A DNA stretch of 50,216 bases from Candidatus Poribacteria bacterium (GTDB lineage: Bacteria; Poribacteria; WGA-4E; PCPOR2b), in the NCBI GenBank assembly GCA_021295755.1, contig JAGWBT010000102.1:1-50216 (forward strand), in the 5' to 3' direction. Each line of letters opens with the position of its first letter. The stretch's first letter is position 1. The notes under the pieces are model-generated. The model was not told where the DNA came from. It ran no database searches and worked only from the letters and a program-made list of their open reading frames with translations. Positions 8,959-15,545 of this stretch are shown here, one piece after another. A program made the position numbers and the translations under genes.

Positions 8959-10095
8959 ATGAAGACCTACAAGTTCAAACTGTATAGCAATCACGGGAAT
9001 CGTGAATTGCACAAGACCATAGATGGTCATGCTCATGTGTGGAATCACTGCGTTGCGCTTCAACGTCGTTACTATGCGATATATGGCAAGTATATCGGCA
9101 AGTTTAGACTGATAAACCATATCTCTAAACTGAAACGGCTTGCCAAGTTCGTCCATTGGCATCAACTGCCAAGCCAAGCGATACAGGACGTGGTGGCTCT
9201 TATAGACAAAGGCTACAAGGCTATGTTTGAAGCCCGTGCTGCTGGCAAGAAGTGGGGTCGTCCCCGCTTTAAGCCACGTCGTAAATACAAGTCGTTCACA
9301 TTGCTACAAGCGGGTTGGGAACTTCTGCCGGGCAACAAGATTCGGATTGGCAAGCGAATCTACCAATATTTCAAGTCCCGTGATGTGCCAGGCAATCCGA
9401 AACGTTGCACAATCAAACGGGATGCCATCGGCGATGTCTATATCACTATCCTAACAGACTATGAAGAACCTGACTTCCATCGAGTCATGACGGGTAAAAT
9501 CGCAGGCTTCGATTTCGGTCTCAAACGGTATCTCACCGGTCATAATGGACATGATATAGACTCACCTGAGTTTTTCAAACGCAGCATCAGCGCTATTAAA
9601 CGTGCAAGTCGTAACCATTCACAAACTAAAAAGAAGTCAAAGAACCGTGAACGTGCACGGCTTGACTTAGCACGGAAGCATCGCAAGATTGAACGACAAC
9701 GGGAGGACTTCCACTGGAAACTTGCACATCAACTCACAGACCTATACGATGAGATACGGCTTGAAGATTTGAACCTTAAAGGCATGAAACGCCTTTGGGG
9801 ACGTAAGGTCAGTGATTTAGGCTTTGCCGATTTCGTTGTGAAGTTGAAATACATTGCAGCGAAAAAGGGTGTAAAAATCACGTTCATTGATAAGTGGTAT
9901 CCTTCAAGTAAAACTTGTTCAGTCTGTTGGGTTGTCAATGACTCGTTGAATCTGCGTGATAGAACATGGCAATGCAGCGATTGTGGCACGACACACGACC
10001 GTGATAGAAACGCTGCAATTAACATCTACAGGGTTGGGGCATCAACCCTCGACGGAGAGGACGTAAGACCATCTTCGGATGGCAATCCTTGTTGA
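8959..10095 (+). CDS. tnpB: TnpB, RNA-guided endonuclease of IS605 family
   Basis: A 378-residue TnpB with all catalytic parts. The RuvC-like site has D185 (GFDFG), E269 (RLEDLNLKG) and D347 (THDRDRNAAIN). The zinc ribbon has C320-x2-C323 and C339-x2-C342. The N-terminal region (KTYKFKLYSNHGNRE, VWNHCVALQRRYY) is the usual wedge/helix-turn-helix part. The first knuckle is followed by Trp where Gly is common. Known TnpB proteins are RNA-guided DNA nucleases that help retain their element. They use an RNA that overlaps the gene's 3' end and runs into the right end. Nothing here suggests inactivation. Confidence 0.93.
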   Translation: MKTYKFKLYSNHGNRELHKTIDGHAHVWNHCVALQRRYYAIYGKYIGKFRLINHISKLKRLAKFVHWHQLPSQAIQDVVALIDKGYKAMFEARAAGKKWGRPRFKPRRKYKSFTLLQAGWELLPGNKIRIGKRIYQYFKSRDVPGNPKRCTIKRDAIGDVYITILTDYEEPDFHRVMTGKIAGFDFGLKRYLTGHNGHDIDSPEFFKRSISAIKRASRNHSQTKKKSKNRERARLDLARKHRKIERQREDFHWKLAHQLTDLYDEIRLEDLNLKGMKRLWGRKVSDLGFADFVVKLKYIAAKKGVKITFIDKWYPSSKTCSVCWVVNDSLNLRDRTWQCSDCGTTHDRDRNAAINIYRVGASTLDGEDVRPSSDGNPC

Positions 10096-10559: not shown

Positions 10560-10653
10560 GTTTTTGGGTATATTTTCGGCATGAGAATCGTTTTATATTA
10601 TGAGAACGGGATTGACTTGTTCTTTTACTTCAACGATAAGGAGTACATCAAAC

Positions 10654-11538
10654 ATGAAACTAATTCTCAGCAGGAAGGGATTTGATACAGAAAACGGTCG
10701 TTGTCCCAGTCCTATTTTCCCTAATGGTAAGCTGTGTTCCCTGCCGATACCTGACTGCGACTCAAACATTAGATACGATGACATTAGATATGGCGATATG
10801 AATATCGGGGAGATAGTCGAGAATCTCACCCGCAGACGACAGCCTCAAAACAGGATTGCTCCCGAGTCTCGCGCCCACTTGGACCCAGACATTAACTACG
10901 AAGCTTACCCACGTGAAAAAGGTTGGCAACCCCTGTTTGGTCAGGGCAAGGGACATCAAACCCATCTAAGCGACCAGGGTGTGCAAATTGGCGATCTGTT
11001 TCTGTTTTTCGGACTCTTCCAAAAGGTTAAAAAAACTTCTGGCAAGTGGTGCTTTGTCAAAGACGCTTCTAGACAACATATCCTATGGGGTTGGCTTCAG
11101 ATTGGAGAAATACACAAGGTCAATGAACTGACGCAGGACCAGCTTTCATGGACGCGCTACCATCCTCATCTACAATACCTACAATACCCCGAGCCCTACC
11201 CAAACAACACACTATACATTGCGTCTGAAGTATTGGACTTGGGCAATGGACCAATAAAACCGGGCGCGGGCCTATTCCCGAATTTTCATGAACGGTTAGT
11301 TCTGACAGATCCGGAGGGGTCAGAGGTGACGGATTGGCGGCTGCCTCGGTGTTTCTACCCTGATGAGAGTAAGTGCCCGCTTACCCACTTTCCCGATCTT
11401 AACAACAACTGGAATCAAAATGATAAATACGCCTATGCATGTCGCAAGGGGCCAGGACAAGAATTTGTCTTAGATCTCGATCAATATCCCGACGTAACGG
11501 ATTGGCTCGTCCAGTCCATCTTTACTCATGACTGCTAA
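10654..11538 (+). CDS. Nmad3 family protein (nucleotide-modification-associated domain 3)
   Basis: A 294-residue protein. I start it at ATG 10654, preceded by AAGGAG, because MKLILSRKGFDTENGRCPSP is the typical Nmad3 N-terminus; an earlier ATG at 10600 has no ribosome binding site. Recognisable family segments are SPIFPNGKLCSLPIPD, the AHLDPD block near residue 76, FGQGKGHQTHLSDQGVQIGD, LFLFFGLFQ, and HILWGWLQIGEI. Nmad3 is predicted from comparative genomics to take part in making or handling modified nucleotides; no catalytic reaction is established. Here it has its own upstream terminator and no partner modification gene nearby, then a metabolic operon. Recognition is from motif memory, not a search. 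Confidence 0.8.
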   Translation: MKLILSRKGFDTENGRCPSPIFPNGKLCSLPIPDCDSNIRYDDIRYGDMNIGEIVENLTRRRQPQNRIAPESRAHLDPDINYEAYPREKGWQPLFGQGKGHQTHLSDQGVQIGDLFLFFGLFQKVKKTSGKWCFVKDASRQHILWGWLQIGEIHKVNELTQDQLSWTRYHPHLQYLQYPEPYPNNTLYIASEVLDLGNGPIKPGAGLFPNFHERLVLTDPEGSEVTDWRLPRCFYPDESKCPLTHFPDLNNNWNQNDKYAYACRKGPGQEFVLDLDQYPDVTDWLVQSIFTHDC

Positions 11539-14660: not shown

Positions 14661-15020
14661 GTTTCTTTCTTTAATTAGGGTGTGTTGACATTTGTGAAGC
14701 TATCTGCAATCGTGGAAGCGAGGTTCTATTTCCCATTCACCAATGCGGGTTAGAAAACCCAAACCATACAGGTTGAATCTATTGTAGATTGTAGGTCGAG
14801 ATTCATACTTCGACGATGAAACGTCGATTTTGGAAAATCGACCTACAGAAGCCCGACATCGTCTCTGACGTGTAAACAAAGGGTTGGGAGACCCAACCCC
14901 TACGAAGAATCATACGTCTGTGCACCCTCTTGATTGTCTGGTTACAACGAAATGTCAGCAGAGCCTAATAACTCAAGTTACACATTGCCATTTATTGACA
15001 ACTTCAGGGTTGGATTCTAT
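14661..15020. other. Gene-free repeat-rich spacer
   Basis: No plausible gene. The spacer contains AGGGTGTGTTGACATT (about 14680), which recurs near 39050. It also has the 25-base palindromic word GTCGATTTTGGAAAATCGAC+CTACA (14823-14847), which is identical at 39123-39147. Short GGGTT...AACCC inverted words surround it. Confidence 0.7.
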
Positions 15021-15049
15021 TTGACAAAAGCGATCTCGTCGCATACAAT
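15021..15049 (+). promoter_or_regulatory. Sigma-70-type promoter of the HMA lipoprotein gene
   Basis: TTGACA (15021-15026), a 17-base spacer, then TACAAT (15044-15049). This is five of six bases from consensus at -10 and perfect at -35. It lies 42 bases upstream of the start codon. Confidence 0.75.
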
Positions 15050-15091
15050 AAATAGGCACTTGATTATAGTCCCAAAGGAGGTGTAACCCAA

Positions 15092-15475
15092 ATGCGCATA
15101 CTAAAACTGACACTAATTTGCTGCGTCGCAATTCTGCTTGCTATTGGCTGTGCTTCAGAGAAGCAGATGGAAAAGGCGGCTGAGACAGCAGCACCTGCAA
15201 CGACAGAAGCTGAAACCGCTGCAAGTACGGATATGTCCGAAGCAGCACCGGCGGCTCACGAACAAATCACGTTAAACGTTGATGGGATGACGTGAGGCGG
15301 CTGTGTATCCAAAGTGCGGGCCGCACTTACAAACGTTCCGGGCGTGATTAGCGCCGATGTTTCCCAAGCAGATGGTAAAGCCATTGTTAAACTGGAAAAA
15401 GGCAAAGCCACTGATGTCCAACTGGCCGATGCTGTCAAAAACGCGGGTTTTAGCGCAAAGACCGCGACAAATTAG
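15092..15475 (+). CDS. Heavy-metal-associated (HMA) lipoprotein with in-frame TGA, candidate selenoprotein
   Basis: It starts at ATG 15092 after AAAGGAGGTG. The first 20 residues are a lipoprotein signal ending LLAIGC. An Ala/Glu/Thr-rich linker follows, then an HMA domain: ITLNVDGMT, then TGA (codon 68, 15293-15295), then GGCVSKVRAALTNVPGVISA and a full domain end to TAG at 15473. The TGA stands exactly at the first Cys of GMTCxxC, the metal-binding motif of MerP/CopZ-type domains. The frame is intact on both sides. Starting 17 bases after TGA there is a 7-bp hairpin (15312-15318 with 15322-15328) with a GGC loop, placed like a bacterial SECIS. TGA is a normal stop elsewhere in the window. 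Selenocysteine is an inference; a TGC/TGT-to-TGA mutation or base error is the alternative. Expected role: periplasmic metal (Hg or Cu) binding or redox. Confidence 0.7.
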
Positions 15476-15496: not shown

Positions 15497-15545
15497 AGAA
15501 CGGAAGGTGTCGAATCAATTAACCGATACCTTCCGTTCTTCCATT
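15497..15545 (+). terminator. Rho-independent terminator after the HMA gene
   Basis: A 16-bp stem, AGAACGGAAGGTGTCG (15497-15512) with CGATACCTTCCGTTCT (15524-15539), containing one G-U pair and followed by a T/C-rich tail. Its place 22 bases after the TAG at 15475, not after the TGA at 15293, supports the longer reading frame as the functional gene. Confidence 0.8.

Follow-up and report, generated by a model that had tools for sequence, protein, structure and literature searches.

Does the in-frame TGA of a small lipoprotein gene from Candidatus Poribacteria, located where an HMA domain would carry its first metal-ligand cysteine, terminate translation or encode selenocysteine (Sec)? The gene (ORF 15092-15475) belongs to the window, by which we mean the whole 50,216 nt stretch of DNA that was analysed (contig JAGWBT010000102.1); its features, and those of related loci, are collected in Table 1. 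An initial annotation made from the letters of the DNA had proposed a selenoprotein candidate, and this reading was supported by every test that could have refuted it among those run. We place the probability that the UGA at residue 68 is read as Sec, and hence that this is a selenoprotein gene, at about 95%. Sec is very probably inserted, judging from the conserved UGA, the coding frame that follows it, a hairpin and a complete Sec machinery.

Table 1. Features of the candidate selenoprotein gene in the window, and multi-domain loci in related genomes (U, Sec-HMA; C, Cys-HMA)
Feature	Location	Strand	Remarks
Candidate selenoprotein gene, HMA lipoprotein of 127 residues	15092..15475	+	Sec would be residue 68; stop TAG 15473-15475
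Sigma-70-type promoter-like site TTGACA-17-TACAAT	15021..15049	+	11/12 matches; chance expectation 1.4 such sites in scanned region
Ribosome-binding site AAAGGAGGTG	15074..15083	+	8 nt before ATG; read from sequence
Signal peptide with lipobox LAIG-C	15092..15151	+	Translation; residues 16-20, lipidated Cys predicted at residue 20
HMA domain, broken by TGA in table 11	15269..15451	+	PF00403; AlphaFold2 model; fold search
UGA codon, probably read as Sec	15293..15295	+	Codon 68; first metal-ligand position of GMTUGGC
Bacterial SECIS-type hairpin AAGTGCG-GGC-CGCACTT	15312..15328	+	17-33 nt after TGA; loop starts 24 nt after TGA
Inverted repeat, likely transcription terminator	15497..15539	+	16 nt, 94% complementary, 11-nt loop; 3' of gene
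Multi-HMA protein, UUU-CC	G030 (L047/L246), near-complete genome		Three Sec-HMA then two Cys-HMA
Multi-HMA protein, UUU-C	G046 (L048/L247), G075 (L253), G024 (L254)		Three Sec-HMA then one Cys-HMA
Multi-HMA protein, UUUU-C	G057:C30 (L054/L252)		Four Sec-HMA then one Cys-HMA
PSCyt1-WD40-HMA fusions	L050 (G000:C148:31281-31505), L052, L053, L065, L096		Sec in most genera, Cys in window's genus

Organisation of the gene

The promoter-like site, the sequence AGGAGGTG and the inverted repeat after the stop codon frame ORF 15092-15475 as a single gene. The strong ribosome binding site of the initial annotation was borne out: AGGAGGTG ends 8 nt before the ATG and is retained in four of six homologues from the genus, the remaining two having AGGAGATG and GGGAGGTG in its place. 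The promoter proposed with it stands as a promoter-like match, given the number of such sites expected by chance, and the TACAAT stretch is also present upstream of the genus homologues. The frame is intact to the TAG as claimed, but of the terminator said to follow it only the inverted repeat is present, which a terminator scan did not call; similar arms enclosing a varied loop lie 3' of the gene in the genus homologues. The upstream intergenic region also contains an imperfect 26-nt inverted repeat at 14790-14847 (TGTAGGTCGA...TCGACCTACA), possibly a dispersed palindromic repeat.

At the N-terminus, the signal peptide, the lipobox LAIG-C and a cysteine at position 20 that is invariant in all 12 aligned homologues together predict a lipoprotein. 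When U is read as C, residues 60-120 match the Pfam HMA family (PF00403) at 50.9 bits (cut-off 24.8; E=2e-13), and the TGA was indeed located by this profile match at the first metal-ligand Cys of a GMTCxxC motif. The MxCxxC pattern retains its second Cys, the first being UGA/Sec, and assignment to PF00403 rests on fold and score because Sec is an isosteric replacement of Cys. AlphaFold2 predicts a confident beta-alpha-beta-beta-alpha-beta domain over the same residues (pLDDT about 90 or more), in which only the first strand precedes the Sec residue. The nearest solved structure in a fold search is MerP (1osd, TM 0.93 by target), followed by Cu-ATPase domains and CopZ.

Conservation of the TGA and of the reading frame beyond it

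A homologue containing one TGA is present in all 59 relatives, which span 11 genera. The exact DNA motif was found in 69 of the 85 genomes of the phylum and a reversed control pattern in none, so the motif occurs far above chance. Within the order, 68 of 73 genomes possess the exact motif and five (G003, G004, G006, G009 and G012) a slightly different motif together with a TGA gene, so that all 73 genomes searched carry a TGA-HMA gene. Outside the order such a gene was detected in one of 12 genomes, and that copy contains TAG. In a TGA-HMA copy at L226 (G070:C129:18724-18972) an extra in-frame TAG lies inside the hairpin stem, where a G-U pair keeps the pairing; this may represent decay or error. 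Matches to the same motif in named genomes are mostly from Candidatus Poribacteria, and the viral contigs scanned with it gave no match.

Since the genome containing the window is a draft of 257 contigs, the TGA might be taken for an assembly or sequencing error for TGC or TGT. The same TGA is nevertheless present in independent assemblies of many species, single-contig genomes among them, and its recurrence at the same place in independent genomes of the genus, family and order excludes a sequencing error for practical purposes. The column is occupied either by TGA in these genomes or by Cys in relatives, as had been anticipated for a selenoprotein: Cys appears in the final repeat of every multi-HMA protein and in a WD40-HMA protein of the window's own genome (GMSCGAC). 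The window gene therefore has an in-frame UGA where homologues have Cys, and its frame is conserved beyond this codon.

Translation table 11 stops at the TGA, and were this a true stop the product would be a 67-residue lipoprotein stub and the remainder either a pseudogene in decay or a frame open by chance. The genus homologues give a dN/dS of 0.18 upstream of the HMA domain, 0.30 downstream of the TGA and 0.25 past the hairpin; a value of 0.72 for the nine codons that immediately precede the TGA derives from few changes. The frame after the TGA, which would encode most of the HMA fold, is thus under purifying selection and shows none of the degradation that might have been expected downstream of a genuine stop. 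These ratios and the order-wide conservation led us to reject the stop or pseudogene reading, which is also opposed by the frozen synonymous sites and the sel genes described below and is very improbable.

The hairpin downstream of the TGA

In the bacterial SECIS model the apical loop lies about 16-37 nt downstream of UGA, with G among the first two bases of the loop. The 7-bp hairpin with a GG-starting loop noted in the initial annotation was confirmed as described, and the SECIS-like layout claimed for it also holds, the loop beginning 24 nt after the TGA and its first base being G in 106 of 106 sequences; the window gene can accordingly be said to possess a SECIS-type hairpin. Folded alone, the hairpin has an energy of -8.2 kcal/mol (z -2.36). 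A 50-nt piece including the TGA prefers another fold in isolation (z -0.8), and we consequently used the hairpin alone together with alignment-based tests.

Synonymous choice across 118 distinct genes is frozen at codons +7 to +10 at the hairpin site (GTG in 117/118, CAG in 109/109, GAT in 76/76 and GCA in 116/116), compared with an entropy of 0.35-1.96 bits for codons further downstream. All six core pairs are formed in 99 of 106 sequences; under synonymous-recoding nulls the number of complete stems averaged 8.5 with the codon usage of the window and 3.4 with that of the same genes, with maxima of 17 and 8 in 300 trials. Among 43 diverse sequences 98.1% of cells are paired, and two pairs show changes from A-U to G-C and from G-C to A-U. 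Since the stem hardly varies, there are few compensatory changes (6 cells in A1). The covariation score was equalled in none of 500 shuffles, and pairing falls to 7-56% when the hairpin partner is slid along. One locus (L046, G011:C13:107304-107651) has a one-codon insertion that converts the motif to UxxxC (GMTUGISC) and keeps the hairpin, 3 nt further on.

A complete stem is present in 125 of 143 Sec-type HMA copies, among which are some loci of different kinds that have different hairpins, versus 2 of 17 Cys-type copies, which taken alone are a weak control because some are close relatives keeping five pairs. The hairpin thus goes specifically with the TGA.

Selenocysteine machinery of the host genome

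A search of the genome for sel genes, suggested in the initial annotation, recovered all four. The genes selA (605 bits), selB (372 bits) and tRNA-Sec (selC, 76.6 bits; anticodon TCA) are contiguous on one contig (C53), and selD (374 bits) itself has the known Cys-Gly-Sec (CGU) site, with its Sec encoded by TGA and a hairpin of its own. When the genome was searched for the hairpin of the window gene, the only exact match was the window gene, and one-mismatch matches were as frequent in the control. A tRNA-Sec scored above the cut-off in 55 of the 59 relatives; none did so in G016, G037, G043 and G051, which all have TGA-HMA genes and are drafts, two of them 94-96% complete.

It could be argued that UGA is decoded as one of the standard amino acids, through nonsense suppression or a recoded genome, as every relative keeps the frame open across this codon. 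TGA is however an ordinary stop elsewhere, as the initial annotation had observed, ending 5 of the 16 long ORFs of the window, and on these grounds general recoding of UGA was rejected. The presence of a dedicated selABC set with tRNA-Sec, the specific link between the hairpin and the TGA, and the fact that the alternative residue is Cys rather than Trp or Arg also oppose an ordinary amino acid, which we regard as highly improbable.

Architectures in related genomes

Single HMA lipoproteins are often encoded by two genes in tandem. Multi-HMA proteins have a signal peptide and four or five repeats, which would contain 3-4 Sec residues, and the final repeat or repeats are always of the Cys type with the motif CDAC (Table 1). 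According to a 2026 review (PMC13188914), 2-3 Sec residues are the upper range for a prokaryotic protein, a range exceeded by the putative four-Sec protein of G057. Fusions of PSCyt1, WD40 and HMA domains (~560 residues) have Sec in many genera and Cys in the window's genome, G004 and G008, and so constitute a natural Sec/Cys exchange. Similar GMTUxxC proteins are also found in Planctomycetota, Acidobacteriota, Armatimonadota and others. Nine such HMA genes from these three phyla (L077, L104, L106, L111, L127, L137, L138, L145 and L151) include several with a lipobox, and have hairpins of other sequence.

Possible function

In the mechanism that we favour, SelB and Sec-tRNA(UCA) would recognise the hairpin 17-33 nt past the UGA and decode this codon as Sec. 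Once cleaved at the lipobox, the product would be an exported lipoprotein about 108 residues long, with one MerP/CopZ-type HMA domain and a Sec-x-x-Cys site; translation that ended at the UGA would leave a 67-residue stub missing nearly all of the HMA fold. Support from sequence extends to the conserved UGA, the coding frame after it, the hairpin, the complete Sec machinery, the lipobox and the HMA fold, from which we infer Sec insertion itself. Outside the cytoplasm, the Sec selenolate and the following Cys most likely bind a soft metal ion, either Hg(II) or Cu(I), and the protein would serve to sequester the metal or to hand it over to a partner; metal, location and partner are in this respect presumed. 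Compared with Cys, Sec gives tighter metal binding and has a lower pKa, properties that the window protein may exploit.

The gene region is syntenic within the genus, and in family f3 the gene is located among unrelated genes (GIY-YIG, PhyH, glycosyltransferase, PRPP synthetase and phosphoglycerate mutase). No mer products were present among the flanking proteins scanned in the window and in one relative with annotated conserved neighbours, nor was a metal operon found nearby among the flanking genes of the window and of the compared regions, so that the fold alone points to metals. The neighbourhood provides no functional clue. Elsewhere in the window a TnpB/OrfB-like IS605 gene (8959-10095), with a Cas12f1-like TNB domain, adjoins an Nmad3 (nucleotide modification) gene at 10600-11538.

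Alternatively, the inserted Sec could belong to a thiol-disulphide (redox) protein, in which the UxxC pair would alternate in the periplasm between a selenol/thiol and a selenenylsulphide state, with metal binding as a side effect. Selenoproteins commonly use UxxC as a redox motif (PMC13188914), and an AhpC/TSA-family gene is situated a few kb off in 9 of 21 regions compared. These AhpC/TSA genes are however separated from the HMA gene by several kb and by unrelated genes, and the fold is that of an HMA domain, with MerP and CopZ as best matches and GMTUxxC in the metal loop. We consider a redox role rather unlikely and, on the basis of the fold, a metal role probable.

More tentatively, the exported Sec metal-binding domains of the order, whether single, paired, stacked in threes or fours or fused to cytochrome and WD40 domains, might form an order-wide system in Poribacteria that traps mercury or copper on selenolates at high capacity, or that stores selenium outside the cytoplasm, and would then be a bacterial counterpart of the multi-Sec selenoprotein P. 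Gene tables that treat TGA as a stop present the window gene as a 67-residue stub without the metal domain, and the same misreading probably affects comparable genes of Planctomycetota, Acidobacteriota and others. The gene would link Sec directly with a metal-ligand position in an extracytoplasmic protein, and Cys versions of the domain in the same proteins and the same genus allow a natural comparison of Sec and Cys as metal ligands. A bacterial message with three or four UGA codons also raises the question of how efficiently SelB can decode.

Comparison with known HMA-type selenoproteins

The presence of Sec in HMA-type proteins is already known, and it is the lipoprotein and multi-Sec forms that appear to be uncatalogued. 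None of the 119 families or subfamilies tabulated in PMC13188914 corresponds to a UxxC HMA lipoprotein, and our literature search found no paper on selenoproteins of Poribacteria, although a prior mention elsewhere is possible. Among the single-domain proteins tested, no NCBIfam model scored over its cut-off; a repeat protein passes the cut-offs for CopZ and NF041115 only via summed repeats.

MerP (1osd, 1afi) and CopZ (6ff2, 2qif) share with the window protein the fold (TM by target 0.93 for both 1osd and 6ff2) and the position of the motif, in which they have Cys and the window protein would have Sec. The periplasmic location of MerP would likewise be shared, but MerP is soluble in the periplasm and is not a lipoprotein, and the window protein scores 52.1 bits against the MerP model TIGR02052, below its cut-off of 92.55. 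NF041115, named 'metal-binding (seleno)protein', resembles the window protein in that the metal-binding loop of its HMA-type domain contains Sec; it is however a UxxU protein, whereas the window protein is a predicted UxxC anchored lipoprotein that scores 61.2 bits against a cut-off of 95. This UxxU family has been termed a putative mercuric reductase (PMC13188914), and the Global Ocean Sampling survey lists a Sec-containing MerP (PMC2398784). A CopZ-like Sec domain is also shared with NF045683, the MerT/CopZ fusion-like heavy metal transport selenoprotein, but the MerT membrane part is absent from the window protein and its score of 33 bits falls well short of the cut-off of 375. UxxC selenoproteins among the P-type cation ATPases are recorded under TIGR01525 (PMC13188914), and ATPases of this type from Aquicultor and Chloroflexota were also picked up by our DNA motif scan. 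They have GMTUxxC in an HMA domain, as does the window protein, but in the ATPases this domain is the N-terminus of a pump, whereas in the window protein it would be a free exported lipoprotein.
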